The notes under the pieces are model-generated. The model was given only the letters and a program-made list of their open reading frames with translations. It searched no databases and was not told where the DNA came from. 33,029 bases of DNA, from IMG/VR virus record IMGVR_UViG_3300047476_000319, positions 1 through 33,029 of that record; one strand, written 5' to 3'. This DNA is from a virus. The translations under genes and the position numbers were made by a program. Positions within the stretch are counted from its first letter, which is position 1; every line of letters starts with the position of its first letter. Positions 2,555 through 33,029 of the stretch are shown in pieces.

Positions 2555-3751
2555 ATGTCAAAAGTTCTATTAGAAGGCCGTTGGGACGAGACCAAAGAAG
2601 CCCTACTTGAAGGCTTAAAGGGCACACGCCGCTCAACAATGGGTGTTATCTTAGAAAACACCAAAAAGCAATTATTGGCTGAATCTTCAGCTGGTACAAC
2701 TACAGCAGGTAACATCGCTACTCTAAACCGTGTTATTCTACCGGTTATCCGTCGTGTTATGCCTACTGTTATCGCTAACGAACTAGTCGGTGTTCAGCCA
2801 ATGACTGGTCCAGTTGGTCAAATCCACACATTACGTGTTCGCTATGCTCAGTCATTGACTGACAATAGCGCGGCAGCAACTTCTGTTACTGCTGGTGAAG
2901 AAGCATTGAGCCCATTCAAGATCGCTCAAGCGTATTCTCGCACTCCATATGCTGATAGCTCAACAAGCTATTACACTGGTAATGATACTGCTGCCTTAGA
3001 AGGCAACGGTGGTAAGCAAATCAGCGTACAAATCTTACGTCAAGCTGTTGAAGCTAAGTCACGTAAGTTACAAGCACGTTGGACATTTGAAGCTGCACAA
3101 GACGCTCAATCACAACATGGTATTGACGTTGAAGCAGAAATCATGGCCGCTCTAGCACAAGAAATTACTGCTGAAATCGACCAAGAAATCTTATTGTCTC
3201 TACGTACATTGGCTACGACTGAATTCACATACAACCAAGCTACTGTATCTGGTACAGCTACTTACGTTGGTGACGAGCACGCTGCATTGGCTGTTCTAAT
3301 CAACCGTGTTGCTAACTTGATCGCTCAACGCACTCGTCGTGGTGCTGGTAACTGGGCTGTTGTTTCTTCAGCTGCATTGACTGTTCTACAGTCTGCTACA
3401 ACATCTGCTTTCGCACGTACTACAGAAGGTACTTTCGAAGCTCCTACAAACACTAAGTTTGTTGGTACATTGAACGGCGCAATGCGTGTGTTCGTTGACT
3501 CTTATGCTCCTGATACTACACCAGTATTGGTTGGTTATAAGGGTTCTAGCGAAACTGACGCTGCAGCATTCTATTGCCCATACATCCCATTGATGAGCAG
3601 TGGTGTTGTTCTAGATCCATCTACATTCGAACCAGTCGTATCATTCATGACACGTTATGGTTATATCGAATTGACTAACACAGCGTCTAGCTTCGGTAAC
3701 GCGGCTGACTATGTTGGTGAGATCGCAGTTCAGAACCTAACATTCCAATAA
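2555..3751 (+). CDS. gp23: Major capsid protein gp23
   Basis: This 398-aa protein forms the hexameric head lattice. Recognisable T4 gp23 blocks are VIRRVMPTVIANELVGVQPM near residues 64-83 followed by GPVGQIHTLRVRYA, and FEAAQDAQSQHGIDVEAEI near residues 178-197 followed by a helix ending in EIDQEIL. A probable gp21 cleavage site, LAE|S, lies at residues 41-44, so the mature protein would begin at Ser44, consistent with T4 (I/L)xE specificity. It is shorter than T4 gp23 (521 aa). Much of the shortening falls between residues about 110 and 160, where T4 carries its insertion domain. A strong ribosome-binding site (taggag) sits 9 nt before the ATG. No gp24 vertex gene follows; a terminator does. 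Confidence 0.95.
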   Translation: MSKVLLEGRWDETKEALLEGLKGTRRSTMGVILENTKKQLLAESSAGTTTAGNIATLNRVILPVIRRVMPTVIANELVGVQPMTGPVGQIHTLRVRYAQSLTDNSAAATSVTAGEEALSPFKIAQAYSRTPYADSSTSYYTGNDTAALEGNGGKQISVQILRQAVEAKSRKLQARWTFEAAQDAQSQHGIDVEAEIMAALAQEITAEIDQEILLSLRTLATTEFTYNQATVSGTATYVGDEHAALAVLINRVANLIAQRTRRGAGNWAVVSSAALTVLQSATTSAFARTTEGTFEAPTNTKFVGTLNGAMRVFVDSYAPDTTPVLVGYKGSSETDAAAFYCPYIPLMSSGVVLDPSTFEPVVSFMTRYGYIELTNTASSFGNAADYVGEIAVQNLTFQ

Positions 3752-19615: not shown

Positions 19616-22333
19616 ATGGCATTAACGACAATACAACCTTATAATATTAACACAGTAGCTACATTCAGTTTCACGGATGTGGCTGCTACCGACGTTTCTG
19701 CCACCGGTAATGTTGAAGCTACAGGTAATGTTTCAGGTGATTATTTTATCGGCAACGGTTCTAGCTTAACACATTTGAACGGAGCCAACGTAACAGGTGA
19801 AGTAGATTATGCGGCTACTGCTAACAGTGTAGCCGGATCTAATGTTTCAGGTGAAGTAGATTATGCCGCAGTTGCTAACAGTGTAGCAGTAGCAAATGTA
19901 TCAGGTATCGGTAACATAGCTACTATAAATTTAGATGGCAACGCAGGTAATATATTATATGGCAATGGTGTATTTTCTTCTGCCCCAAATGTAGAGAACG
20001 CCAATACAGCTAATTATGCTAGTGTCGCTAATTCTATTACTGGCTCAAATGTTTCTGGAGAAGTATCTTTTGCTAATACCGCTAATAGTGTAGCCGGCGC
20101 TAATGTATCTGGGGCAGTTGCTTATGCGACTACTGCTAACTCAGTAGCAGGCGCCAATGTAAGCGGAGCAGTTGGGTTAGCCACATACGCAACAACAGCT
20201 AACTCAGTCGCGGGAGCTAATGTAAGTGGTCAAGTTAACTTTGCAGCAACAGCAAACAGTGTAGCAGGAGCTAATGTAAGTGGTCAAGTATCGTATGCCG
20301 CAGTAGCTAATAGTGTATCAGTTGCTAATGTATCAGGTATCGGCAACATCGCTGTACTAAATTTAGATGGTAATTCAGGTAATATACTATACGGTAACGG
20401 TTCTTTTGCTACAGCACCAAACGCAGAATATTCAAATATAGCAAATACTGCCGGTACAGTTACAACTAATGCTCAGCCTAACATCACTAGTGTAGGCACA
20501 TTAACTATTTTAACATCTACAGGTAACATCACTGGCGGCAATCTAGTAACTGCCGGATCAGCCAATGTGGGCAGTGGTATCAGTGTCAGTGGTGGCGGCG
20601 CAAGTATTATAGGTGCTGTTGGTATTACTGGTGATATTAATGTTACTGGTAACTTTAACGTATCAGGTAATCTAAATTATCAAAATGTAACTGATTTAGT
20701 AGTTGGAGATCCATTGATATATCTTGCTGCCAACGGTGTAGGGGATACAGACGATATAGGTATTGTTGGTAACTACAACGACGGAGCATATAGACATACC
20801 GGACTAGCGAGAGATCATAGTGATGATATTTGGAAATTCTTTACTGACTTAGCGCCTGAACCAACTACCGTGATTGATTGGGCTAACGCTAGTTACCCCA
20901 CAGTTAAAGTGGGCAATTTACTATCTGCTAATTTAACAGGTACTGGTTGGGCAAATATAACAGGTAACGTCACTGCTGGAAATGCTAATTTAGGTAATGC
21001 AGTAACTGCTAATTACTTTGTCGGTAGCGGTGCTAACTTGTCAAGCATTGCCGGAGCAAACGTCACTGGTGCTGTTAGTTATGCGACTACTGCTAATAGT
21101 GTAGCAGGAGCCAATGTATCAGGGGCCGTATCATACGCAACAACAGCAAACAGTGTAGCCGGTGCTAACGTATCGGGGGCAGTAGGATTAGCTACATATG
21201 CTACTACTGCTAACTCAGTAGCCGGTGCTAACGTATCAGGAGCTGTTAGTTATGCGACTACAGCTAACTCAGTAGCCGGTGCTAACGTATCAGGAGCTGT
21301 TAGTTACGCGACTACAGCTAACTCAGTAGCCGGTGCTAACGTAAGTGGTACTGTTGGTAGTGCGACTACAGCAGGTACTGTAACAACTGCAGCACAACCA
21401 AACATAACAAGCACAGGTACATTGTCTAGTGTTAACTCGTCAGGCAACGTAACAGCACCTAACGTAGTAGCAAACACGGGCGCATTCTATGGTTCTGGTG
21501 CTGGATTATCAAGCATACCAGCCGGTAACTTAACCGGTACAATTGATAATGCTAGAGTTAACGGTCAAACATATACAATAAATATCACTGGATCTGCTGG
21601 AACAGCAAGTACAGTAACAACTGCGGCTCAACCTAACATCACTAGTGTTGGTACACTATCTAGTGTTTCTGTTTCTGGAACATCAACGCTACCTCAGATT
21701 TTGGTTAACAGAAGTTCAGGTGCCGGTACTGGTATATCTTGGTATTCTAGTAGTTATTCGGCCTGGACTGATTATATGTCATCCGCAGGAGCAACAGGTT
21801 GTGGTCCTTTTGGTAATATTACAGCACCTAGCGGCAACTTAGTCACTAACTGGGGCCTAAGAAGTTTTATCGAAGATGCTTCAGGTTATGGATGGACATG
21901 GGAATCTGGTTCGGCGCAACAAACAACTCCTACGATTAAAGCAGAAATTCGTTCAAGTGACGGGTCATTCAGAAACACAGGTAATATCTATTGTGTAGGT
22001 GACGTTATCACTAACTACTCTGATGTCAATTTGAAAGATATCATCGGTCCTATTGAAAACGCAGTAGAAAAAGTATGTGCTATTGAAACTTTCTACTATC
22101 GTCCTAATCAAATAGCAAAAGACTTAGGTGTAGCTGATGAACTTCAAGTTGGTGTCAGCGCACAATCTGTCAAACGAGTTGCTGAAGAAACTACTAGACC
22201 CAGCCCAATTAATGATAAGTACTTAACGGTTATGTATGAAAGATTGGTTCCATACTTGATAGAATCAATCAAAGAACATGAAAAAACAATACAAGACCTA
22301 AAAGAACAAATCAATAGTTTGAAGGGCAAATAA
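19616..22333 (+). CDS. Tail fibre with C-terminal S74-type intramolecular chaperone (905 aa)
   Basis: The N-terminus (ALTTIQPYNINTVATFSF) differs from the KPLN anchor. GANVSG/ATTANSVA repeats cover about residues 56-232 and 479-582. Between them lie a GNAGNILYGNGVFSSAPN-type spacer repeated twice and a VVGDPLIYLAANGVGDT ... HTGLARDHSDD module (356-435). Three AQPNITS-type repeats follow. Residues about 696-800 form a globular aromatic region (SWYSSSYSAWTDYMSSAG, WGLRSFIEDASG), probably the tip. From 802 comes a canonical S74 start, SDVNLKDIIGPIENAVEKV, continuing to VGVSAQSV and a final coiled coil (LIESIKEHEKTIQDLKEQI). The SD..LK arrangement suggests the chaperone cuts itself off before Ser802. 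The stop overlaps the next gene (TAATG). Confidence 0.88.
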   Translation: MALTTIQPYNINTVATFSFTDVAATDVSATGNVEATGNVSGDYFIGNGSSLTHLNGANVTGEVDYAATANSVAGSNVSGEVDYAAVANSVAVANVSGIGNIATINLDGNAGNILYGNGVFSSAPNVENANTANYASVANSITGSNVSGEVSFANTANSVAGANVSGAVAYATTANSVAGANVSGAVGLATYATTANSVAGANVSGQVNFAATANSVAGANVSGQVSYAAVANSVSVANVSGIGNIAVLNLDGNSGNILYGNGSFATAPNAEYSNIANTAGTVTTNAQPNITSVGTLTILTSTGNITGGNLVTAGSANVGSGISVSGGGASIIGAVGITGDINVTGNFNVSGNLNYQNVTDLVVGDPLIYLAANGVGDTDDIGIVGNYNDGAYRHTGLARDHSDDIWKFFTDLAPEPTTVIDWANASYPTVKVGNLLSANLTGTGWANITGNVTAGNANLGNAVTANYFVGSGANLSSIAGANVTGAVSYATTANSVAGANVSGAVSYATTANSVAGANVSGAVGLATYATTANSVAGANVSGAVSYATTANSVAGANVSGAVSYATTANSVAGANVSGTVGSATTAGTVTTAAQPNITSTGTLSSVNSSGNVTAPNVVANTGAFYGSGAGLSSIPAGNLTGTIDNARVNGQTYTINITGSAGTASTVTTAAQPNITSVGTLSSVSVSGTSTLPQILVNRSSGAGTGISWYSSSYSAWTDYMSSAGATGCGPFGNITAPSGNLVTNWGLRSFIEDASGYGWTWESGSAQQTTPTIKAEIRSSDGSFRNTGNIYCVGDVITNYSDVNLKDIIGPIENAVEKVCAIETFYYRPNQIAKDLGVADELQVGVSAQSVKRVAEETTRPSPINDKYLTVMYERLVPYLIESIKEHEKTIQDLKEQINSLKGK
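21211..21343 (+). repeat. Near-perfect 54-bp tandem repeat in the 905-aa fibre gene
   Basis: Units at 21211-21264 and 21265-21318 differ at one position (tat versus tac), and a 25-bp partial third copy follows. The unit encodes NSVAGANVSGAVSYATTA in rotated phase. Neighbouring units encode the same peptide with different codons, so this pair is a recent expansion. Confidence 0.88.
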
Positions 22334-23466
22334 TGGGATTCTATGTAGGTAATAGCGGCAACGCAAATGTAAACGCAACTTCTAGTGGATTTAAGGCACC
22401 GGTATTCACCTCATCGACATTGCCCGCTAGTCCAGTCGAAGGACAAGTAATTTATAATTCTACTACCCAGTACATGCAGGTGTACGCTAACGGTAGTTGG
22501 AATAACTTGGGGGTATTTCCCGGAACAGCAGGTTATCCATACAGACAAATAATTGTAAAGAGTTTTGTTATGGGTGGATATCAAAATACTAGCCCATGGC
22601 GAAATGTAAACAAGATGGTACACAGTACAGATGTGTGTACTAACTTAGGCGATCTGTTAAGTTATGCAGGAGTATACACAAGTGGTGTTAATAACCTAAC
22701 CAGAGGTTTCTTGTGGAGTACAGACGGTTCATTCCCTGGAGCAAGCACAACTACAAGTGCAATTAATATGAACACCGAGACTACAGCCGGTACCAATGCT
22801 AATTGGAATACTAGAATTGCTAGAGATGACATGGGCACTGGATTCAAAGAAACTGAATTTGCTTATATCGTAGGTGGTGGATCAGCCGTATTTGATATTT
22901 TTAATCTTACAACCGAAACTATGTATTACGGAACACCTATGTACTTACCATTTGATACGGTGTTGTCTTATACTGCACAAGGTAGTGGTGATACAAGTGC
23001 TGTAAGCGATGAAAACGCATGTTGGTTTTGGGCTACAGGCCCATTGAACACAAAACTTTCGTTCAACACTCATACTTTTACAAGCAATGGATTAGTGGCT
23101 GCAGCTGGTGGATTGCGAGGTTCTTCTATTGGCGGAGCACACGGACAACAAAAGGGTATTAATAGTAAATGGGGTCGTGGTTATGCTGGTGGAAATGGTA
23201 GCTGGAACGGCGGCTATATATTAAATCGCATGGTGTTCTCGACAGAAACATCCACCACAATCAATAAGCCAATCGGTAATACCGGCGAAGAGAATTTTGA
23301 CATGGGACAAAACTGGCAGTATATGATGGGCTGTTATGATGGAGCACAAAACAACAGAGGTTGGAAGTTTACATATGCTACTGACTTGGGTGTCGAACTA
23401 GGTTCAGGAAGCGTAAGAACCGGCGTACCTGGCGGCAGTTCTGGTCATTGCGTTTGGAGCACATAA
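22333..23466 (+). CDS. Propeller-like fibre/adhesin protein, trio B member 1 (377 aa)
   Basis: First of three tandem paralogues. The N-terminus has a common phage fibre module, LPASPVEGQVIYNSTTQYM, followed by W. The body has recurring S-T-[DE] turns about every 45-60 residues (HSTDVCTNLGDL, NMNTETTAG, NLTTETMYYG, VFSTETSTTI) next to Gly-Gly strands, as in kelch-like beta-propellers. The C-terminus is highly conserved: GEENFDMGQNWQYMMG, DGAQNNRGWKFTYATD, ELGSGSVRTGVPGGSSGHC. It is more diverged from members 2 and 3 than they are from each other. A fibre-tip or carbohydrate-binding role is inferred. TAATG overlaps occur at both ends. Confidence 0.75.
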   Translation: MGFYVGNSGNANVNATSSGFKAPVFTSSTLPASPVEGQVIYNSTTQYMQVYANGSWNNLGVFPGTAGYPYRQIIVKSFVMGGYQNTSPWRNVNKMVHSTDVCTNLGDLLSYAGVYTSGVNNLTRGFLWSTDGSFPGASTTTSAINMNTETTAGTNANWNTRIARDDMGTGFKETEFAYIVGGGSAVFDIFNLTTETMYYGTPMYLPFDTVLSYTAQGSGDTSAVSDENACWFWATGPLNTKLSFNTHTFTSNGLVAAAGGLRGSSIGGAHGQQKGINSKWGRGYAGGNGSWNGGYILNRMVFSTETSTTINKPIGNTGEENFDMGQNWQYMMGCYDGAQNNRGWKFTYATDLGVELGSGSVRTGVPGGSSGHCVWST

Positions 23467-24536
23467 TGGCATTTTCTATAGGTAGCAACAACATAATGAC
23501 AGTAAACGGCTTGGTAATGCCAATATATACCACAGCCACTAGACCAGCGAATCCTGTGATCGGACAAGTCATATACAATTCTACTACAGCCTACATGGAA
23601 AGATTCGATGAAGGAAATGTATGGAGACCTGTTATATATTCCGGGGCTCTACTGTACAGACAGATTATTACAACTAGCTATGTTGCTGGCGGATACAAAG
23701 ACAGCAGTCCTTGGAAAAACGTTAATAGAATGACACATAGTACTGATGTTATGGTTAACCTAGGTGATCTGTTAGCGACGGCAGCTAACTATACTTCGGG
23801 AGCATGTAGCCTAACAACAGCTTTTATGTGGTGTGCCTCACCTGACGCATTTCCTACAACACCAACTAATACTACAGTAGCATTTGCCATGACTACTGAA
23901 ACAACATTAGGTACAGCAACTCGGTGGAATTTAGGTAACGCAAGAAATGACTGCGGAACTATATTTAAAGAAACAGAATATGCTTATGTCACCGGCGGCG
24001 GTCCAGCTGCAGTGGACGTATTTAATCTTAGTACAGAAACTGTTACAGCAGGTGGCGTATCCGGACAAACGGGTGACGCCTCTTATCAGAATGGTGTTAG
24101 CGCATTCAGCGGGGAATTCGTAGGATATTGGTGGGGTAGTAGTGGTCAAAAACTTACGTTCAGTACAGGAACATCGTACACCGTCGCAGATGCGTCTGGG
24201 GTAAGTACTAATGGACAGCAAAAAGGTATCTCAAGTAAAGTAGGTAGAGGATATATGGGTAATGAAGGTACGTACAATGGCGGGTACAATTTACGTAGAT
24301 ATGTAATCTCAACCGATTCGTACACTACTGTTGCCAAACCTGTAGGTAATTCAGGAGAAGAAAACTTTGACATGGGTCAAAATTGGCAGTATATGATGGG
24401 TATGTACGATGGAGCACAAAACAACAGAGGTTGGAAGTTTACCTACGCAACTGATAGTGGTTATGAATTAGGCTCTGGTAGTGTACGTACGGGTGTCGCA
24501 GGTGGCAGTTCTGGTAACTGTTTCTGGAGAAGTTAA
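23466..24536 (+). CDS. Propeller-like fibre/adhesin protein, trio B member 2 (356 aa)
   Basis: The start at 23466 is chosen over an in-frame ATG at 23448. It gives MAFSIGSNN, matching the MAF/MGF starts of both siblings, it overlaps the previous stop by one base (TAATG), and a GGAG ribosome-binding site precedes it. Landmarks are TRPANPVIGQVIYNSTTAYM, GGYKDSSPWKNVNRMTHSTD, RNDCGTIFKETEYAYVTGGG, WWGSSGQKLTFSTGTSYT and GEENFDMGQNWQYMMGMYDG. Recurring STD/STE turns suggest several blades of a beta-propeller. It is closest to member 3, sharing DNA tracts of more than 30 identical bases. It is followed directly by member 3 with no gap. Confidence 0.78.
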   Translation: MAFSIGSNNIMTVNGLVMPIYTTATRPANPVIGQVIYNSTTAYMERFDEGNVWRPVIYSGALLYRQIITTSYVAGGYKDSSPWKNVNRMTHSTDVMVNLGDLLATAANYTSGACSLTTAFMWCASPDAFPTTPTNTTVAFAMTTETTLGTATRWNLGNARNDCGTIFKETEYAYVTGGGPAAVDVFNLSTETVTAGGVSGQTGDASYQNGVSAFSGEFVGYWWGSSGQKLTFSTGTSYTVADASGVSTNGQQKGISSKVGRGYMGNEGTYNGGYNLRRYVISTDSYTTVAKPVGNSGEENFDMGQNWQYMMGMYDGAQNNRGWKFTYATDSGYELGSGSVRTGVAGGSSGNCFWRS

Positions 24537-25607
24537 ATGGCATTCAAGCTAAATTCTAATATTGTATTATCAAACGATGGCATAAACATACCGGTGTTTG
24601 CCGGCAATGCTAGACCAGCAAACCCTGTTACAGGACAGGTTATCTACAATTCATCTACTAACATCATGGAGATATATGATGGTGGTTTGTGGAAGGATGT
24701 GACACAGAACGCTAGTGGAACTGCATTTTTATATAGACAACTTATATCAACTAGTTATGTTGCAGGTGGGTATCAAAGTGCTAGCCCATGGAAAAACGTA
24801 AATCGAATGAGCCAAAGTACCGATATTATGACTAATTTAGGTGACTTGTTATCGATAGCAGCCAACTATACATCAGGCGCGAATAGCTTAACTACTGCTT
24901 ATATGTGGTGTGCATCTCCAACATGGGACGGAACAGCAGTTGCTACAGTAGCATATAATATGGCTACTGAAACAAGCGCTGGCTCATTATCATCATGGAA
25001 TATGCCAGTTGCACGTAACGATTGTGGTACAATATTCAAAGAAACACAATATGCTTATGTAACAGGGGGCAGTAGCGCAGATGTTAGTGTTTGGACATTC
25101 TCAACCGAGAGTTTTTCATCTGGTGCTGTATCTGGACAAACAGGTGATTCCTCTTATCAGTATGGTGTTGCGTCAATCAGTGACGAGACCTCAGGTTACT
25201 GGTGGGGTAGTAGTGGTCAAAAACTTACGTTTGGTACAGGTACTACATACACAATAGCTAATGCTGCCAACGTTAACGTTAATGGACAGCAAAAAGGTAT
25301 CTCAAGTAAATTAGGCTTTGGATACTTTGGTAATGAAGGTGGATATAACGGCGGATATAATCTTAGAAAGTACATAACTAGTACTGATACATATACTACT
25401 ATTCCTAAACCTATAGGTAATTCAGGAGAAGAGAATTTTGACATGGGACAATATTGGCAGTATATGATGGGTATGTATGACGGAGCACAAAACAACAGAG
25501 GTTGGAAGTTTAGTTACACAGCCGATACAGGATATGAGCTTGGTTCGGGAAGTACAAGAACAGGGGTTCCGGGAGGAAGTTCTGGGCACTGTGCGTGGAA
25601 GGCATAA
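24537..25607 (+). CDS. Propeller-like fibre/adhesin protein, trio B member 3 (356 aa)
   Basis: The ATG follows the previous stop with no gap, after a GGAGAAG ribosome-binding site. It shares ARPANPVTGQVIYNSSTNIM, GGYQSASPWKNVNRMSQSTD, RNDCGTIFKETQYAYVTGGS, WWGSSGQKLTFGTGTTYT and the NNRGWKF C-terminal block with member 2. The most variable stretches lie between the conserved turns, where propeller top loops would be expected. Cysteines are few and mostly conserved (WCAS, NDCG, GHC). No signal peptide is visible, as expected for a virion part assembled in the cytoplasm. The binding target is unknown. Confidence 0.78.
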   Translation: MAFKLNSNIVLSNDGINIPVFAGNARPANPVTGQVIYNSSTNIMEIYDGGLWKDVTQNASGTAFLYRQLISTSYVAGGYQSASPWKNVNRMSQSTDIMTNLGDLLSIAANYTSGANSLTTAYMWCASPTWDGTAVATVAYNMATETSAGSLSSWNMPVARNDCGTIFKETQYAYVTGGSSADVSVWTFSTESFSSGAVSGQTGDSSYQYGVASISDETSGYWWGSSGQKLTFGTGTTYTIANAANVNVNGQQKGISSKLGFGYFGNEGGYNGGYNLRKYITSTDTYTTIPKPIGNSGEENFDMGQYWQYMMGMYDGAQNNRGWKFSYTADTGYELGSGSTRTGVPGGSSGHCAWKA

Positions 25608-25632: not shown

Positions 25633-26397
25633 ATGAAAGATTTCACTACTGAAGTAAGCAACGAACACAGAGCATTAATTGAAAAATCAGCAGACCGTAA
25701 TTTGGTTATGCCTGAATTCAAAGTAAAAAACTTTGTGGGTAACGCACAAATTACTCCATACGCAAAGTTAAAACAGTATATAATTGAATTGAACGGCCGC
25801 GAAATGGCAGTTGAGAATATGATCTATGAATACAAAAAAATTCAATTAGAAATTCAATTAGAAAAAGAAAAAGCAGAATCCATCAGAGAATCTAGTCCTA
25901 TACAAGCCGCATTGCATGATCTGGAAATTTTTAAAATGGAAGGCGTACTAAAGCGCAGTGAACTTAGATTACGTGACTCAGTACAAGAACGTGATTTGTT
26001 TTTAAAAGTAATTGATGATTTTAACGCAAGCCCGGAAGGTACATTACCCGATGGTACTAAATTAATAGATGCGTTTGATAACCCCGAACTGTGCGAGAAG
26101 TTGGAAAAAGATTATTGGACTCTACGACTAGCTAAACAAACTGCTATGGATATGATAGCATACGGCAGAGCAGGCGTGGGTAACATGGACGCTGTAGTTA
26201 TGTTAGAACCCGACCAACAGTTAGAAGTAATGCGTTTGGCGTGTGATTTCTTTGTAAGAAATGAAATGAGAACAAACAATTTACTAAGTCAGGTTAACCA
26301 AGGTATACAGCAAAATATGTTGCCTAACTCAGCGTTAGTTCAACAGTTAATGTTTAAGGCAGACGATAATGTTCCTAGTGTTCAAAACAGTAAATGA
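25633..26397 (+). CDS. Hypothetical helical phage protein (254 aa)
   Basis: I do not recognise a named family. The protein starts with a short extended region (NLVMPEFKVKNFVGNAQITP), then a long charged helix at about residues 45-125 (KIQLEIQLEKEKAE and onward) that probably forms a coiled coil. Two or three more helices follow (residues about 150-230), with a Gln/Asn-rich C-terminus. There are no membrane segments. A good ribosome-binding site (ggaga) sits 5 nt before the ATG. It lies between the trio B fibre genes and a protein with a fibre-assembly-like domain, so a role in fibre or tail assembly is possible but unsupported by any motif. The next gene probably overlaps its end. Confidence 0.65.
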   Translation: MKDFTTEVSNEHRALIEKSADRNLVMPEFKVKNFVGNAQITPYAKLKQYIIELNGREMAVENMIYEYKKIQLEIQLEKEKAESIRESSPIQAALHDLEIFKMEGVLKRSELRLRDSVQERDLFLKVIDDFNASPEGTLPDGTKLIDAFDNPELCEKLEKDYWTLRLAKQTAMDMIAYGRAGVGNMDAVVMLEPDQQLEVMRLACDFFVRNEMRTNNLLSQVNQGIQQNMLPNSALVQQLMFKADDNVPSVQNSK

Positions 26398-27097
26398 ACA
26401 ACAAATGGGTCTGGTCAAACGTGTTGGCCAGTACCTAGATTATGTTGTGGGATGGTTGGATGATAGTGTTAAAGATATCGTTCCAATCAAACACCTTAAC
26501 GCAACAATCATCGATGATGAAAAAATAGCTATGGCGTGGAAATTTGCCGGAAACTATTCTGGATACATCAGTGTAAGATCAAAGACACTAGCCAATGACC
26601 AATTAGATATCGTCAGTAGCACTGAAGCAGATGGTACAAAAGTTAAATACTATCTAACTGAAGAAGATATAGCAAGCGCCGCGGTCTTTATGAAGATTGT
26701 GTTGCGAAAGATGCTAGATGAAGTTTACGACCGAAGACTTGAACATATAAACGCTGAAGTATCTAGGCTAGAAACTGCGTCTTGGGCTACTCAGTTATCA
26801 GAAGCATGGTCGTATAAAATAGATCATACTGCTAGTGTACCATTGTTGTCATCATTAGCAGAAGCTAGGGGTATATCCAAAGATGATATGGCTGACAAAA
26901 TAACTAAAGCACACGAAGCATATGAAGCGAACATTGCTAAATTATTAGCTAAGAAACAATTAGTCGAAGCTGAAATAAAACAATGTAGTACAGTCAAAGA
27001 ATTAAATGTAGTAATACATAGACGCTTTGGGTACAACATGCCAGCAAAACAACAAGCAGATATGAATTGGGTAGAAAGTTCTGTATACGACCTATAA
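26369..27097 (+). CDS. Putative tail-fibre assembly-like protein (242 aa)
   Basis: Two starts are possible. ATG 26369 gives a 28-29 nt overlap with the previous gene and has a weak AAGG upstream. ATG 26405 gives MGLVKRVGQYLDYVVGW, lies 7 nt after the previous stop, and has no clear ribosome-binding site. The N-terminal half is mixed alpha/beta. The C-terminal half, from about residue 130, reads RLETASWATQLSEAWSYKID, then TASVPLLSSLAEARGISKDD, then a helix. That order of a W..Q..EA...Y helix and a TP.L..LA..RG turn resembles the C-terminal region of DUF4376-type phage tail-fibre assembly proteins. The similarity is by eye. A chaperone or adaptor for the many upstream fibres would fit the context. 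Confidence 0.6.
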   Translation: MFLVFKTVNEQQMGLVKRVGQYLDYVVGWLDDSVKDIVPIKHLNATIIDDEKIAMAWKFAGNYSGYISVRSKTLANDQLDIVSSTEADGTKVKYYLTEEDIASAAVFMKIVLRKMLDEVYDRRLEHINAEVSRLETASWATQLSEAWSYKIDHTASVPLLSSLAEARGISKDDMADKITKAHEAYEANIAKLLAKKQLVEAEIKQCSTVKELNVVIHRRFGYNMPAKQQADMNWVESSVYDL

Positions 27098-27116: not shown

Positions 27117-28730
27117 ATGTTCTCAATTCCTATAAATCCAAAACTAGATCCAAAACAATTTCAAGAATTTTATGATTTCTTAAAGGATCATAAAGAATTT
27201 ATATACGACTTGTACTTTACTAGTCGTATGCCACCCTTCATTCAAGATGCTATGGGTGATGTTTTTGATATCAATAATACTGCCCCTATCGAGGCAGCAC
27301 TACACATTCAACACACATTGGGTATTCCAGTATCTGCTACGTTCAATAATACATTAGTTCGACCCAGTCAAGAAAACTTAGACTTGTTTATTTCTAATTT
27401 TAGAATGCTCTACGCGGCTGGTGTACGTTCTGCTACAATACCGCACACTCATTGGGTAATGACTGGTCAGCTTCAAAAAGAATTCCCTGAATTGTTTATT
27501 AAGAATACTATTCTTTGGGACACCAACAAAGCTAATGAAGTTGCTAAACTAGCAGAAGCCGGATTTAAGTACGTAAACTTAGACCGTGACTTGATGCGTG
27601 ACCGTGATGAATTGATTAAGATACGCAAAGTTGCTGACAAGTATGGCATCAAAATTAGCTTATTAGCAAACGAAGGGTGTGCTGGCGGATGCCCGGTCAT
27701 GAAAGAGCATTTTCAATTTAACAATACTCGCGGCCAAGATGGTGCTCAGTACTTTAATGATACTATTAGCCGTGTGAGTTGTCCTAAGTGGGATTATGAA
27801 GATCCTAGTAGTATGTTGAAGACTGCCAACTTCCCACCTTGGAAAGAAGATTGGGACGAGTTACTACAATATGCTGACGTAATCAAGATGCATGGTCGTG
27901 AATCTATCGATAGATTATACGAGACAATGAATATCATTAAACGCTACAAAAACAACGAAGAATACTTGTTTGATACGTTTGAAGAATACATCCAAGATAC
28001 TAATCTAGCCGGCAAACCAATCAATGCTTGGCGAGACAAGATAAAGAATTGTAAGTTTGATTGCTGGGATTGCGACTATTGCGATAAGATATATCAAGCA
28101 AAGTCAAAAGAAGTAGCGCATCCAAAAATAATTACAGTAACAGAAGAATTAGTAAACTCAGCTAATATTGACCTAGATATTAAAGTAGAAGGATTAACGA
28201 GCCCTAGAGTTCAGAAATTATTGTACGCACTCGCAAAACGCAGTAGCAACTATCTAGAAGTAGGCAGTGCAATGGGGGCTACAGCAACTGCGGTTGCCCA
28301 AGCGGGAATAAACATGCACTGTGTTGACAGTTGGACAACTGACATTCAACCCATGAGTGAAGAATTTGAATTACCCGATAATACTAAAAAGGTCTTTCTG
28401 GATAATTTAAAAGGATACAATGTCAACGTTCACGACACTGATTTGTTTAATGTAGACAAGTCGAAAATTAAAGATATTGATTTGTTTTTCTACGATGGTC
28501 CTCATGACATAGAGACTACAATGAAAGCAGTCAAATACTATAGTGAGTGTTTTGCGGATACTGCCATATTGATATTTGATGATGCTAATTGGATGGGCGT
28601 AGTTCAAGGAGCAGAGATGGGTATAGGATTAGCTAAACTGAAGAAACTATATTCTAAGATGATGCTCAACAGCCCTGAGAATAAGACACAATGGTGGAAC
28701 GGCCTGTATATTGTAGTGGTACAAAAATGA
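27117..28730 (+). CDS. U32-like Fe-S barrel protein fused to a class I methyltransferase (537 aa)
   Basis: Two domains are visible. Residues 1-330 alternate strands and helices like the TIM-type barrel of the U32 family (IPVSATFN, VRSATIPH, YVNLDRDLMRD). They include the family-like NEGCAGGCP (C188, C192), SCPKW (C222) and VIKMHGR near 255-261, comparable to the KIEGR motif of U32 proteins, and end in a Cys cluster C312, C316, C319, C322. U32 enzymes bind a 4Fe-4S cluster and hydroxylate RNA bases or quinone rings. Residues about 335-537 form a Rossmann methyltransferase: YLEVGSAMGATATAV (SAM loop, 379-393), CVDSW (402-406), DLFFYDGPHD (455-464), LIFDDANW (485-492). The stop overlaps the next start (ATGA). 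Substrate unknown; hydroxylation followed by methylation is an inference. The strain of evidence is motif-level only. Confidence 0.75.
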   Translation: MFSIPINPKLDPKQFQEFYDFLKDHKEFIYDLYFTSRMPPFIQDAMGDVFDINNTAPIEAALHIQHTLGIPVSATFNNTLVRPSQENLDLFISNFRMLYAAGVRSATIPHTHWVMTGQLQKEFPELFIKNTILWDTNKANEVAKLAEAGFKYVNLDRDLMRDRDELIKIRKVADKYGIKISLLANEGCAGGCPVMKEHFQFNNTRGQDGAQYFNDTISRVSCPKWDYEDPSSMLKTANFPPWKEDWDELLQYADVIKMHGRESIDRLYETMNIIKRYKNNEEYLFDTFEEYIQDTNLAGKPINAWRDKIKNCKFDCWDCDYCDKIYQAKSKEVAHPKIITVTEELVNSANIDLDIKVEGLTSPRVQKLLYALAKRSSNYLEVGSAMGATATAVAQAGINMHCVDSWTTDIQPMSEEFELPDNTKKVFLDNLKGYNVNVHDTDLFNVDKSKIKDIDLFFYDGPHDIETTMKAVKYYSECFADTAILIFDDANWMGVVQGAEMGIGLAKLKKLYSKMMLNSPENKTQWWNGLYIVVVQK

Positions 28731-29338
28731 CAAAGCGATTTCCTGTATTAAGTGCCGATATATTTTATAGAAACGTCGGCACACCAGAACAACGACAAGA
28801 TTTAATTGACCAGGCATTAGCTGAACAAGCAAGAAATTCCCAGACAGTCGCATGGACTAATCGAGGGTGCTGGAGAAGTTATTTTCAGTACAATAACATT
28901 GAATGGCTGAAGAAGGAACTCAATGAAATGGTCGCGGAAGCCGGCAATTACTATCAAGAAATAGATCCTATCTATAAGAGAAAAACAAAAAGTTTTGTAG
29001 GTAGTGAATTAAAATATTGGACTAACATCAACAAGCCTGGCGGTCGCAATGCCATGCACGAACACAAATTATGGCATTACGTTGCTTGCTATTATTTACA
29101 AGCAGAAGACACAGGGGACATTGTGTACTTCAACCCTATTAATTTAACTGAAGGATGTAATCCATATGCCCCCTTCGTAAGTCCAATGTCGTTCTCGCCT
29201 AAAGATGGGGATTTATTGATGTGGCCCGCGTGGCTTCCCCATGAAGTAGAAATGAATATGTCTGATAAATCTAGAATAAACATTGCCTTCAACATCAGAT
29301 TTCAAGCACCAGTGAGTTTAGAAGATGCGGAAGATTGA
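28727..29338 (+). CDS. 2OG-Fe(II) oxygenase-like protein (203 aa)
   Basis: The start at 28727 (ATGA overlap with the methyltransferase fusion) is preferred to the upstream in-frame ATG at 28691, because MTKRFPVLSADIFYRN is the natural start of this family. The C-terminal half has a double-stranded beta-helix layout: NAMHEHKLWHYVACYYLQ with candidate iron ligands H111/H113, GDIVYFNP, GDLLMWPAWLPHEVEMN with H172, and SRINIAFNIRF with R183 as the likely 2-oxoglutarate anchor. This resembles the TIGR02466-type putative 2OG-Fe(II) oxygenases that are frequent in marine T4-like phages. Such enzymes couple 2-oxoglutarate decarboxylation to hydroxylation. The substrate is unknown. It overlaps the next gene by 14 nt. 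Confidence 0.8.
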   Translation: MTKRFPVLSADIFYRNVGTPEQRQDLIDQALAEQARNSQTVAWTNRGCWRSYFQYNNIEWLKKELNEMVAEAGNYYQEIDPIYKRKTKSFVGSELKYWTNINKPGGRNAMHEHKLWHYVACYYLQAEDTGDIVYFNPINLTEGCNPYAPFVSPMSFSPKDGDLLMWPAWLPHEVEMNMSDKSRINIAFNIRFQAPVSLEDAED

Positions 29339-30083
29339 ATTTTATAGTGATGTGTACGGGTTAGTAGACACTGTACCTATATTGAAGCCAGTAGATTGCT
29401 TACCTAAATGGGTATCTACAGTACGAGCAGACTACAAACAAAGTAACAAAGAGAAACCACATTTGTATAGATGCCCAGGTATATTCGATTTGTTTAACTA
29501 TGGTTATATAGTATCAGCATGGCATGACATAACATTGAATACTGACGGTGAACAATATGGTTGGGAAATACCTAGCAAAGAGCTATTGAACTATAAATTG
29601 AACGGTGATTTGGCTTCAGCGCATAGTCACAAAGACGTTGCTAAGTATTTACCTAGACCTAAATGGACACACCCCAGTGTATTGAAACTAAACACGCCGT
29701 GGCATGTTATAGCGCCTAAAGGAGTTAAATTGTTAATAACTAGTCTACCATACCCTGACTCATATGAGTTTGAAGCATTGACTGGGATTTTAGATCCAAG
29801 TATCAGTACAGAAATCAATATTCAATTGAATTGGAATACGCCAATTGGCACAGGCAGAATCACAGCAGGCACACCGCTAGCACACATTATTCCATTGAGT
29901 GAAGAAACGTTTGAATTAGTAGTTAGAGATAAAAACGCTAACGATGAAATATGGTCTAAAAAACGTAATTTTGTCAATAGCATGAGTTACATATTAAATC
30001 GTTCTAGGATCAAGAAAATGTATGACAATCATTTTCATAAAGAAGAACCTAAGAAATGCCCCTTTCACTTTTGGAGAAAATAA
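29325..30083 (+). CDS. Hypothetical protein, DUF6065-like (252 aa)
   Basis: The protein carries a YRCPGIFDLFNYGYIVSAWH block (residues 48-67), followed by an extended beta-rich region (GVKLLITSLPYPDS, EINIQLNW, GRITAGTPLAHIIPLSEE) and a basic helical C-terminus with KKCPFHFW at the end. The CPG..D.....GYIV..W.D pattern and the beta-barrel middle recall DUF6065 proteins found in phages and bacteria. I am moderately sure of the resemblance and know of no assigned function. It overlaps the oxygenase gene by 14 nt and abuts the membrane protein gene with no gap, so it belongs to the same translational unit. The His-rich NHFHKEE plus the terminal Cys could bind metal. Confidence 0.65.
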   Translation: MRKIEFYSDVYGLVDTVPILKPVDCLPKWVSTVRADYKQSNKEKPHLYRCPGIFDLFNYGYIVSAWHDITLNTDGEQYGWEIPSKELLNYKLNGDLASAHSHKDVAKYLPRPKWTHPSVLKLNTPWHVIAPKGVKLLITSLPYPDSYEFEALTGILDPSISTEINIQLNWNTPIGTGRITAGTPLAHIIPLSEETFELVVRDKNANDEIWSKKRNFVNSMSYILNRSRIKKMYDNHFHKEEPKKCPFHFWRK

Positions 30084-31139
30084 ATGAGTTTAGAGTTATT
30101 AAAGGGATTAGAATATCTTTGGTTGATATTCTTTATTATGATTGTTTCTGGTATAGCAAAAGAACAGAATCTTTTCATGCCGGTTTATTCCTACATTAAA
30201 TCAGCATTTAAAAGCAATCGTGTAGTATTGTTTTTAATTAGTGCTGTCAGTGGTGTACTTCCCATTGAGGGTCGAGTTACTGTATCAGCAGGAGTATTAG
30301 ATACAATTACCAAAAAAGATTGTTCATGTGGTCATGACCATGGTCGTCAGCGAATGGGTATAGTAGATTATCTAGCAACGCATCATTACTATATGTGGTC
30401 TCCGTTAGAGAAAACGGTTATATTGCCAATGGCTATGTTTGGCATAGGGTATACCGCTTGGCTCGGTATAGTTTGGCCTATATTAGCGGTTAGTTTGTTG
30501 TTTATTTTCTATTACATATTCACTCAAGTCAAAGAAGATGATATAGAAATTGACTTTGTTCCATTCAAAATAAGCTCCGTAATACGTAATGTTCTACCTT
30601 TCTTTGTCGCAATAGCTGCCTATATCTATGTGGGCGGAAACACAAATGTTTTCCCTATATTTGGATGTTTAGCATTATGGTACATGTTCTTGACACAGAC
30701 ATGGGATATTAAGAAATTACTAAGCTATATCAATTGGGAAGTCATACTAACTGTTGCGGCTGTGATAGTTTTAGGTAACTATTTAAAGTCGCATAGCGCA
30801 TATTTTACTGATATGATTAAATCTGCTGGAGTAGACCCTGCGACATTTTATGGTATGACTATCATATCATTGTTTGGATTTGCCGCTAGCTTTTTGATGG
30901 GTTCTAGTGGTAAATTTGTTGCTCTTGCTGTGCTAATGTCAACGGTCTTTGGTCATCAATACTTTTTATGGTTTTTTGCGGTAGACTTTGTGGGGTATTT
31001 AATAAGCCCTACACACAAGTGTGTTATGGTCGGAAATAGATATTTCGGCACTTCTATCAAGCAATACTTCACGGTTTTAGGTATTTGGGGACTGTTATTA
31101 CTAGGATCTGCTGGAACGTTCACATTCATAGGGGCATAA
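30084..31139 (+). CDS. DUF401-like multi-pass membrane transporter (351 aa)
   Basis: Roughly nine or ten hydrophobic segments are visible, for example residues 8-25, 47-63, 111-149 (two), 168-185, 190-206, 218-233, 253-305 (two or three) and 328-350. SGVLPIEGRVTVSAGVLD (56-73) and LISPTHKCVMVGNRYFG (306-322) resemble the paired re-entrant or helix-break motifs of DUF401 proteins, which belong to the citrate/ion transporter superfamily. A loop after segment 2 contains C80, C82, H84 and H86 (DCSCGHDHGRQR), a potential metal site. The gene starts at the base after the previous stop with a GGAGA ribosome-binding site. A full-length inner-membrane transporter is unusual inside a phage fibre locus. 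It could move an anion, metal or small organic substrate during infection; none can be named. Confidence 0.75.
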   Translation: MSLELLKGLEYLWLIFFIMIVSGIAKEQNLFMPVYSYIKSAFKSNRVVLFLISAVSGVLPIEGRVTVSAGVLDTITKKDCSCGHDHGRQRMGIVDYLATHHYYMWSPLEKTVILPMAMFGIGYTAWLGIVWPILAVSLLFIFYYIFTQVKEDDIEIDFVPFKISSVIRNVLPFFVAIAAYIYVGGNTNVFPIFGCLALWYMFLTQTWDIKKLLSYINWEVILTVAAVIVLGNYLKSHSAYFTDMIKSAGVDPATFYGMTIISLFGFAASFLMGSSGKFVALAVLMSTVFGHQYFLWFFAVDFVGYLISPTHKCVMVGNRYFGTSIKQYFTVLGIWGLLLLGSAGTFTFIGA

Positions 31140-31142
31140 ATA
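31135..31142 (+). promoter_or_regulatory. Candidate upstream late promoter
   Basis: CATAAATA followed by C overlaps the stop codon of the transporter gene, 42 nt upstream of a second such element. It may be a tandem late promoter for the fibre at 31203 or a chance match created by the stop codon. Confidence 0.4.
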
Positions 31143-31150
31143 CACTATTA

Positions 31151-31170
31151 GGCACCACAGTGTGGGTGCC
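31151..31170 (+). other. Stem-loop between tandem late-promoter-like elements
   Basis: ggcaccac and gtgggtgcc can pair as an 8-bp stem with one bulged G and a 3-nt loop. Six A's follow instead of T's, so it is not a standard terminator on the plus strand. It could be a 5' hairpin of a transcript begun at 31135 or a weak barrier. Confidence 0.4.
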
Positions 31171-31176
31171 AAAAAA

Positions 31177-31184
31177 GATAAATA
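31177..31184 (+). promoter_or_regulatory. T4-type late promoter
   Basis: GATAAATA followed by C, ending exactly 18 nt before the ATG at 31203, with a taggaag ribosome-binding site in the spacer. Sequence and spacing match the element before the 692-aa fibre. Confidence 0.72.
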
Positions 31185-31202
31185 CTTGTAATAGGAAGAA
31201 TT

Positions 31203-33029
31203 ATGTCTTTAATTTTAAAACAAGAAGCCGCAAACACAGTACCGACACCCGCTGCCGGGAAAGGTACGATATTTTTAGACGACAACGATCAGATTGCTGT
31301 CAAAACATCAGGAGGGAACACTAGTGTTTTCCCCGCCGTTACAACCAGCAACACACAAGTATTTTATAACGATCAGGGCAGTTTAGCCGGATCCAACGCA
31401 TTTGTCTTTAATGATACGTCCAACACCGTAACGGTAGCAAATCTCACCGTTACTGACACACTAATAGCAGGTGATATCGCAGTTTCATCTATTGCTAACG
31501 GTACAAGTAATGTTGATATTGTAGGCGTTAGTGGAAACGTAACAATAAGTGTAGCAGGTAATGCTAATATTCTCACAGCGACTGGTACCGGGGTCAACGT
31601 TGCGGGTACGTTGAATTCTACTGGCAACGCAAACGTAGGAAATATTGGTGCTACAGGTGGTGTGTTTACTACTGTAGCTGGATCACTAACCACAGCATCA
31701 CAGCCAAATGTCACTAGCGTTGGTACACTTACATCATTGGGGGTCAATGGTACAATTACCGGGGTAAATATAACAGCTAATACAGGAGTATTCACTGGTA
31801 ATGGATCAGGTTTAACTAATATTGCCGGAGCAAACGTCACCGGTGCTGTTAGTTATGCGACTACTGCGAACGCAGTAGCCGGCGCTAATGTGTCAGGAGC
31901 AGTAGCATACGCAACAACTGCCAACTCAGTCGCCGGAGCAAACGTAAGCGGAGCAGTATCATACGCTACCACTGCCAACAGTGTAGCTGGAGCTAACGTA
32001 TCAGGAGCTGTTGGCTTAGCTACATACGCATCAACAGCGAATGCTATAGCAGGTGCTAACGTATCAGGCGAAGTAGGTTTTGCGGCAGTAGCTAATTCAG
32101 TAGCCGGAGCAAATGTATCCGGTCAAGTAAACTATGCGGCAACAGCGAATGCTGTAGCAGGTGCTAACGTATCGGGTCAAGTAGGAAACAGTCTAGTAGC
32201 AGGAACTGTATATACGGCAGCACAACCAAATATCACATCCGTTGGAACTTTAACTTCGGTTGATGTGACCGGTAATACTGTCTCTGGAAATGTATACGCT
32301 AACTCAGGGACAATTGGCGCTAGCTTATTAACTGGTACACTAACAACTGCCTCACAACCTAACATAACAAGTACTGGAACTCTAACCTCATTGTCAGTAA
32401 CAGGTACCGCTTCTGCTGGAAATTTAATCACAGGTGGAACTCTGTCAGTAACTGGTAACGCCAACGTTGGCAACATGGGTGCGGCAGCCGGGGTATTCAC
32501 CGCTAACGTTTCAGCAAACAATCTATCAACTACAAACAAAGTAACTGCTGGTAATGGACTACAAGTTACTACGGGTGCTCTTACTATCTTGTCAGGTAAC
32601 CTAGATATCACCGGTAATTTAAATGTAACTGGTAACGTAAACTATAGTAATGTAACTGACTTGGTTGTAGGGGATCCATTGATTTATATCGGTGAAGATA
32701 ACTCCGGCGACACGGTCGATTTAGGTATAGTTGCTAGCTATAATAACGGGTCATACGTACATACCGGTCTTGCTAGAAATGCTGCAACTGATTACTGGAC
32801 ATTCTTTGATGGTGTAGCGGCGGAACCAACAACAGTAATCGACTGGGCTAACGCAACATATCCTACTGTAAAAATGGGAGCATTGCTGTCTACTTCTACA
32901 GTAACTGGTACACGACTAATATCTAATATAGCAACCGGTACAGCACCATTAGTAGTATCATCTACTACACAAGTTGCTAACTTAAATGCGGCGACCGCAG
33001 GTCTAGCAACATACGCAACAACTGCGAAC
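31203..33029 (+). CDS. Repeat tail fibre protein (3' partial, 609 codons in window)
   Basis: An open frame runs from ATG 31203 to the right edge without a stop. The N-terminus SLILKQEAANTVPTPAAGKG, then TIFLDDNDQIAVKTSGG, is a fibre start I associate with marine T4-like phages and differs from the KPLN anchor. Then come an NTQVFYNDQGSLAG module (about 60), three AQPNITS-type repeats, a run of GANVSG/ATTANSVA units (about 210-330), and a VVGDPLIYIGEDNSGDT ... HTGLARNAATDYW ... EPTTVIDWANAT module (about 483-560) shared with the two S74 fibres. By analogy an S74 or similar C-terminus may lie past the window. The ribosome-binding site is taggaag. The late promoter at 31177 serves it. Confidence 0.88.
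   Translation, partial: MSLILKQEAANTVPTPAAGKGTIFLDDNDQIAVKTSGGNTSVFPAVTTSNTQVFYNDQGSLAGSNAFVFNDTSNTVTVANLTVTDTLIAGDIAVSSIANGTSNVDIVGVSGNVTISVAGNANILTATGTGVNVAGTLNSTGNANVGNIGATGGVFTTVAGSLTTASQPNVTSVGTLTSLGVNGTITGVNITANTGVFTGNGSGLTNIAGANVTGAVSYATTANAVAGANVSGAVAYATTANSVAGANVSGAVSYATTANSVAGANVSGAVGLATYASTANAIAGANVSGEVGFAAVANSVAGANVSGQVNYAATANAVAGANVSGQVGNSLVAGTVYTAAQPNITSVGTLTSVDVTGNTVSGNVYANSGTIGASLLTGTLTTASQPNITSTGTLTSLSVTGTASAGNLITGGTLSVTGNANVGNMGAAAGVFTANVSANNLSTTNKVTAGNGLQVTTGALTILSGNLDITGNLNVTGNVNYSNVTDLVVGDPLIYIGEDNSGDTVDLGIVASYNNGSYVHTGLARNAATDYWTFFDGVAAEPTTVIDWANATYPTVKMGALLSTSTVTGTRLISNIATGTAPLVVSSTTQVANLNAATAGLATYATTAN
31830..32170 (+). repeat. GANVSG / ATTANSVA coding repeats
   Basis: About seven tandem units with core AVAGANVSGAVSYATTAN lie in the partial fibre gene. 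The first unit is nearly identical at DNA level to one in the 905-aa fibre gene (31831 onward versus 21051 onward). Confidence 0.8.

Follow-up and report, generated by a model that had tools for sequence, protein, structure and literature searches.

A Conserved Fibre-Linked Locus of Marine T4-Like Myoviruses Encodes a Predicted Fusion of a U32-Type Barrel and an O-Methyltransferase

Why would a virus place four tightly packed genes for enzyme-like and membrane proteins between its fibre genes? The question is raised by positions 27117 to 31139 of IMG/VR record IMGVR_UViG_3300047476_000319, analysed here over a stretch of 33,029 nucleotides (nt), referred to as the window. The four genes encode a predicted fusion of a U32-type barrel and an O-methyltransferase (U32MT), a 2-oxoglutarate-Fe(II) (2OG) oxygenase-like protein, a protein with a predicted dUTPase fold (D6065) and a DUF401-type membrane protein (D401). 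A first-pass annotation had taken them for a transferable four-gene module. Our comparisons indicate instead that they are almost certainly the 3' part of a longer, fibre-linked locus found in marine T4-like myoviruses. This locus is real and conserved, and its boundaries had been misplaced in the first-pass annotation; its function, considered below, we infer.

Relatives of the proteins were collected from viral stretches, and the best 80 of the 269 confirmed for U32MT, of 128 for D6065, of at least 584 for D401 and of at least 591 for flavin halogenases were kept; for the upstream fibre-type protein (FIB), the best 80 hits corresponded to 72 loci of 453. Since only the best 80 were kept in each scan, the proportions describe the relatives nearest to the queries. 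Co-occurrence was counted from hidden Markov model (HMM) annotation of stop-to-stop frames, at loci with 5 kb of sequence on both sides and for families lying within 7 kb. At the well-flanked loci of the U32MT scan, FIB and two small proteins, P1409 and P1604, were each present in 32 of 32, D401 in 31, D6065 in 17 and 2OG oxygenases in 16. Reciprocally, each of U32MT, P1409 and P1604 was present at all 25 loci of the FIB scan, along with 2OG (24/25), D401 (23/25) and D6065 (21/25). The D6065 scan gave U32MT at 41 of 41 loci, 2OG at 39, D401 at 27 and halogenase at 22. For the D401 scan, U32MT was present at 18 of 32 loci and 9 of the 32 had none of the other families, and for the halogenase scan the values were 13 of 28 for U32MT and 19 of 28 for 2OG. 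These counts show that FIB and U32MT are near-obligate partners, that D6065 follows them and that D401 and the halogenases are freer.

The near-constant core of the locus is therefore one or more FIB paralogues, P1409, P1604 and U32MT, the last being grouped with the upstream genes because it is nearly always found with them; the two small genes differ in order from locus to locus, so their labels may be exchanged in some. The optional genes, which follow U32MT and precede the next structural genes, encode 2OG oxygenases, the dUTPase-fold protein, the DUF401 transporter and flavin halogenases. All three of 2OG, D6065 and D401 were found downstream of U32MT in at least 27 of the 56 contigs with enough downstream sequence, which is an undercount that the HMM counts supersede, as simple open reading frame (ORF) calls missed D6065 at loci L061 to L063 (it was recovered by tblastn in L061 and L062, and in L063 through the same contig, L223). 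When the U32MT lineages were dereplicated at 92%, the gene following D401 belonged to 14 families in 26 lineages and the gene preceding the fibre array to 11 families in 29 lineages, which means that the unit is kept as the genes around it turn over. The conservation of gene order across divergent contigs is more than chance. The first-pass annotation had proposed looking for the four-gene set in marine viral contigs, and the set does recur in divergent ones, but with the boundary wrongly drawn, since U32MT belongs with the genes upstream of it; the outcome that would have spoken against any joint set, independent homologues with no co-occurrence, is the reverse of the strong co-occurrence found. 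A cellular origin of U32MT was considered and rejected: the scan of genome contigs returned only two relatives, both on short contigs of metagenome-assembled genomes (L122 and L123), and L122 looks viral because FIB, P1409 and P1604 accompany its U32MT relative.

We then asked whether the optional genes come and go as one. A tree of 85 U32MT sequences was built by a quick method, and the 65 rows with enough downstream DNA were scored. Presence and absence of 2OG, D6065, halogenase and D401 gave 13 combinations in these 65 rows, with 19 changes on the tree. The 2OG gene changed state 8 times, D6065 6 times, D401 9 times and the halogenases, which mark two clades, twice. Accessory labels were clustered on the tree, none of 200 shuffles being as low, so gain and loss are occasional and not random. 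With so many separate changes, the four genes do not form a block that moves as one, contrary to the first-pass proposal. Base composition, which that annotation had suggested comparing, gave no signal: the G+C content in 1-kb windows was 0.355 to 0.390 in the cassette and 0.357 to 0.466 in the rest of the window. Recent import is thus not indicated and was rejected.

The core unit is also present in cultured phages. Among 50,697 named phage records, U32MT was found in 123 and FIB in 121, all of them cyanophages; compared by totals and host counts, the two sets were almost identical in their hosts. As 418 records are cyanomyoviruses by a helicase yardstick, neither gene is universal. By search, two more Prochlorococcus records had U32MT than had FIB; in P-HM2 the annotation nevertheless places a gene of the FIB class (GC 351) three genes before U32MT, so that, in this phage at least, any shortfall would lie in search sensitivity. 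The core genes lie side by side, though not always in the same part of the genome: at about 30 to 37 kb in Syn33 (about 30 kb), S-H25 and MbCM1 and at 90 to 103 kb, near neck genes, in P-HM2 and ACG-2014j.

In the window, the locus and the DNA that follows it are arranged as listed here.

22333-23466, + strand: FIB paralogue 1 (phrog_1417), with the conserved C-terminal tail GGSSGHCxW
23466-24536, + strand: FIB paralogue 2, from an ATG at 23466; the longest ORF begins at a TTG at 23448
24537-25607, + strand: FIB paralogue 3
25633-26397, + strand: P1409 (phrog_1409), small core-unit protein
26369-27097, + strand: P1604 (phrog_1604), small core-unit protein, ending 19 nt before U32MT
27117-28730, + strand: U32MT (phrog_1458), predicted U32-type barrel and catechol-type O-methyltransferase
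28727-29338, + strand: 2OG-Fe(II) oxygenase (PF13759, phrog_81), start probably at 28727; the longest ORF begins at 28691
29325-30083, + strand: D6065 (phrog_7084), predicted dUTPase-fold protein
30084-31139, + strand: D401 (phrog_14035), DUF401/CitMHS-like membrane protein
31136-31202, + strand: gap preceding the next fibre-like gene, holding two ATAAATAC words and one hairpin; putative promoter role
31203-33029, + strand: fibre-like ORF that leaves the window at its end, related to 19616-22333

The four ORFs described in the first-pass annotation were all recovered in the same order and on the same strand, and both the 14-nt overlap of the oxygenase and D6065 genes and the 0-nt abutment of D6065 and D401 were exact. 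Its 4-nt overlap between U32MT and the oxygenase holds if the latter starts at 28727, with the ATG lying over the TGA stop, as many oxygenase homologues start at the equivalent methionine, but becomes 40 nt if the start is 28691. A fibre-type late promoter had been placed just after D401. The word ATAAATAC is indeed present at 31136 and 31178, both at or within the gap that follows D401, but the three copies in the window compare to a shuffled mean of 3.01, and the word is thus not above chance by count. Scans of the window for sigma-70 promoters and terminators were likewise at chance level, and no tRNA genes were found in it. The hairpin in the gap (GGCACC...GGTGCC, 31151-31170) is followed by AAAAAAG, not by a run of T.

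The left part of the window encodes a prohead protease and a major capsid protein (2555-3751), both of the T4 type. Among 15 matches listed, the capsid protein was nearest to those of Vibrio phage 2.275.O, PA5oct-type Pseudomonas phages and Sinorhizobium phage Phosso (64 to 67% identity). Judged by these affinities, the virus is T4-like with a capsid related to jumbo phages, and is not a cyanomyovirus. In contrast, the sole cultured relatives of its U32MT are cyanophage genes. At other loci, a Nudix hydrolase gene beside a T4 gp15-like tail sheath stabiliser forms the border of many (L026:9021-9467 and relatives), often on the opposite strand, and in some (L041:2972-13140, L042, L034, L026) U32MT is surrounded by two flavin halogenase genes, several for oxygenases and one labelled as ferrochelatase.

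What the U32MT protein might do was addressed with a predicted structure (mean predicted local distance difference test score, pLDDT, 85.9). Residues 1-267 of the model matched the U32 protein 5d88 (Mk0906) with Z 16.7 and a root mean square deviation of 3.3 over 218 aligned residues (Foldseek E 4.8e-7), and residues 346-537 matched catechol and phenol O-methyltransferases with a best Z of 17.7, the top rows being TomG, COMT and SafC (Z 15 to 17.7), with TrmR (5zw3) at 16.6. The Methyltransf_24 profile scored 32.2 bits against a cutoff of 26.3, and by its modelled fold U32MT is a member of the metal-dependent catechol-type O-methyltransferase group. Invariant across 39 U32MT proteins were C188, C192, C222, C312, C316, C319, C322, K257, G260, R261, D460, D488, D489 and N491, of which we take D460, D488, D489 and N491 to be the methyltransferase metal site. 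The middle region (about 280-330), of low model confidence, holds four of the invariant cysteines. The first-pass description of a U32-methyltransferase fusion thus agrees with the barrel fold and the methyltransferase, but not with the Pfam U32 profile (PF01136), which did not match the window protein even at E 1, nor any of 42 members at 0.1 or any of 10 records at E 10, with positive controls. A profile-to-profile comparison (hhalign) was very weak (probability 4%, E 0.0092). As sequence profiles miss U32, membership rests on the fold and a K-x-x-G-R motif: K257-M-H-G-R261 is invariant, and KIEGR occurs in three of the four E. coli U32 members, which space their cysteines differently. The predicted fusion suggests hydroxylate-then-methylate chemistry at one site, to which TrhP and TrmR offer a direct parallel.

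The oxygenase assignment of the first-pass annotation was upheld by PF13759 (59 bits, cutoff 27) and TIGR02466 (63 against 62.5), and 3bvc and 2rg4 are solved relatives. H123, H125, H184 and R195 are invariant in it, in an HXH...H pattern, not HXD/E, and the histidines would be putative iron ligands. Within these clusters, 2OG oxygenase profiles also cover cyanophage genes that carry the label DNA endonuclease V or denV (phrog_274; L041:2972-3604, L075:7563-8084, L077:4225-4758); the L075 protein matches PF13640 (E 4e-13) and phrog_274 (E 2e-10), and the L041 protein phrog_274 and phrog_81. These matches suggest that the denV label has been wrongly given to 2OG-like oxygenases. D6065 was named for a likeness to DUF6065 that did not survive, as PF19541 had no match in the window protein and matched 1 of 32 homologues (E 0.0052). 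Its predicted structure (pLDDT 90.3) is a dUTPase jelly roll with extra helices; all 50 listed rows of the fold search were dUTPases (best Z 9.9, 120 aligned; Foldseek E 2.4e-4), and the Pfam dUTPase profile gave slight support, matching 4 of 32 family members (best 3.3e-4). Its GILDP..S.EIN and AGTPLAQLIP segments resemble dUTPase motifs III and IV, and dUTP hydrolysis would be a putative activity. D401 was confirmed as DUF401-like (PF04165, 34.3 bits against 24). The gene after it is often an outer-membrane beta-barrel-like one (cluster c17; L015, L016, L017, L019, L023, L028 and L033), also where D401 lies outside the locus; L028:9037-9624 is an example (PF13505, E 8.5e-8). Sequence searches against solved structures gave nothing convincing for U32MT, D6065, D401 or FIB. 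Among 94 dereplicated FIB proteins, the C-terminal tail is GGSSGHCxW[KR] in one clade, that of the window, and of the SSGACSSAAA type in another. The terminal tryptophan was present in 43 of 55 FIB proteins with 2OG versus 4 of 17 without; as a mark of 2OG action it was rejected, not being significant on the tree.

Taken together, these results lead us to favour, tentatively, a locus that chemically tailors fibre-tip proteins, with the fibre-side proteins as putative substrate. Decoration of virion fibres, one of the functions offered in the first-pass annotation, is accordingly the likeliest of the readings, though we hold it as an inference only. Late in infection, the U32 barrel, probably holding Fe-S clusters through its invariant cysteines, would hydroxylate the neighbouring FIB protein at a residue that is probably aromatic, and the fused O-methyltransferase would cap the newly made hydroxyl. 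The 2OG oxygenase and, in other phages, halogenases would add further marks, which would alter or protect the receptor-binding tip. The weakest step is the role of D401, which would bring in or remove a small carboxylate. A protein target is preferred to tRNA because the constant pairing with one fibre family is unexplained by a tRNA function, and the stacking of several oxidative enzymes (L041, L034; the oxygenases of L075), with no assembly enzyme in the maps, fits tailoring of a macromolecule that already exists. Several points weigh against such tailoring. The substrate, the activity and the virion modification are all putative, late fibre regions in general may collect accessory genes, and D401 is without a clear role. 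In S-ShM2, U32MT lies about 7.5 kb from FIB, with 2OG, petE and gnd genes between them. Halogenase-D6065-2OG sets occur in syn9 and P-TIM40 with U32MT not in the fetched stretches, so these three genes do not need the core unit, and yet they still lie behind fibre genes. The link between the FIB tryptophan and 2OG was lost after tree correction (8 independent pairs, median p 0.5).

Other explanations account for part of these data. The target of the enzymes may instead lie on the host surface or be a small molecule, in receptor masking, superinfection exclusion or auxiliary metabolism, with D401 carrying the substrate across the inner membrane and the place beside fibre genes reflecting shared late expression. 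In keeping with this, D401 is CitMHS-related, 14 of its 32 well-flanked loci are without a nearby U32MT, a beta-barrel-like gene often comes after it, and some cyanophage stretches in which FIB was not found carry halogenase and 2OG genes. The near-obligate two-way pairing of U32MT and FIB is not predicted by such roles, however, and we consider them unlikely. Alternatively, U32MT may combine the roles of TrhP and TrmR in a single fused enzyme that makes 5-methoxyuridine at the tRNA wobble position, the other genes being separate accessories. PMC6599085 describes TrhP as a U32 protein and B. subtilis TrmR as similar to catechol O-methyltransferase; it places trhP1 and trhP2 as a tandem pair within a single operon and notes that some eukaryotes have a TrhO-TrmR fusion. 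TrmR is among the U32MT fold matches (Z 16.6), but dozens of O-methyltransferases are nearly tied there; a tRNA enzyme would not be expected to be obligately linked to a fibre gene, and the window is without a tRNA gene, which is weak evidence. We regard this as improbable.

Similarly improbable is a permissive site behind fibre genes that gathers unrelated single insertions with no joint function. The repeated state changes of 2OG, D6065 and D401 on the U32MT tree and the frequency of D401 elsewhere would follow from it. It sits poorly with the joint presence of all three behind U32MT in roughly half or more of the contigs scored (at least 27/56), and with well-flanked D6065 loci that have U32MT in every case and 2OG in all but two although the flanks turn over. 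Finally, the proteins may be virion parts or assembly chaperones whose enzyme folds are kept for binding and not for catalysis. A dUTPase fold can have a binding or signalling role, phage dUTPase entries so described are among the D6065 fold-match titles, and the genes lie within the late structural region; the invariance of putative catalytic and metal positions across the 39 U32MT proteins speaks against this, and we regard it as highly improbable. DNA base hypermodification, suggested by the dUTPase fold and the S-B43 case, was set aside, the main text of PMC12783734 naming no U32 protein, 2OG oxygenase, halogenase or dUTPase.

Tailoring of fibre-tip proteins would matter beyond this window. 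Cyanophage 2OG oxygenases and tryptophan halogenases are common, and in the passages of PMC3037559 and PMC9964418 consulted their roles are guesses: DNA repair, nitrogen metabolism or antibiotic protection. As virion proteins, neither FIB nor U32MT is named in the section of PMC3037559 consulted. A literature search returned no paper on DUF6065, and no title retrieved on viral halogenases, cyanophage 2OG oxygenases and halogenases, hydroxylation or halogenation of tail fibres, or cyanophage sericin describes the locus. The tight linkage to a fibre-like protein offers a concrete substrate that can be tested in cultured phages, and the domain fusion suggests the reaction. If the tailoring is real, the fibres with which ocean phages recognise their hosts would be chemically altered in ways invisible from sequence alone. 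It is a more doubtful proposal that marine T4-like phages have a dedicated post-translational chemistry for receptor-binding tips, in which a fused U32 hydroxylase/O-methyltransferase works only with the adjacent fibre protein and 2OG oxygenases and flavin halogenases are added in some lineages; if true, the natural substrate of viral tryptophan halogenases, so far missing, would be found.

The closest known counterpart is the cyanophage T4-GC 351-354 run (Syn33, P-HM2, S-H25, ACG-2014j), which, like the window, has the order FIB, two small genes and U32MT, with a U32MT about 40 to 44% identical to that of the window and labels that are hypothetical or sericin-like (sericin 1 precursor-like; 352, 353, 354). 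These loci differ in having no 2OG-D6065-D401 run beside U32MT, or a phrog_274-type gene and D401 (S-H25). The tryptophan-halogenase clusters of syn9 and P-TIM40 resemble the window in packing a D6065 relative and 2OG oxygenases behind fibre or fibre-assembly genes; they differ in carrying halogenases, of which the window cassette has none, and in showing no U32MT in the fetched stretches. The iodinating viral halogenase of Gkotsi et al. (2019) is reported to come from Syn10. TrhP, RlhA and UbiU/UbiV share with U32MT the barrel fold, as seen in one solved U32 protein, and the K-x-x-G-R motif; their cysteines are spaced differently, and U32MT has the fused methyltransferase. The B. subtilis TrhP-TrmR mo5U34 pathway, which differs in its separate genes, its tRNA target and its independence of fibre genes, likewise joins U32 hydroxylases to a catechol-type O-methyltransferase.

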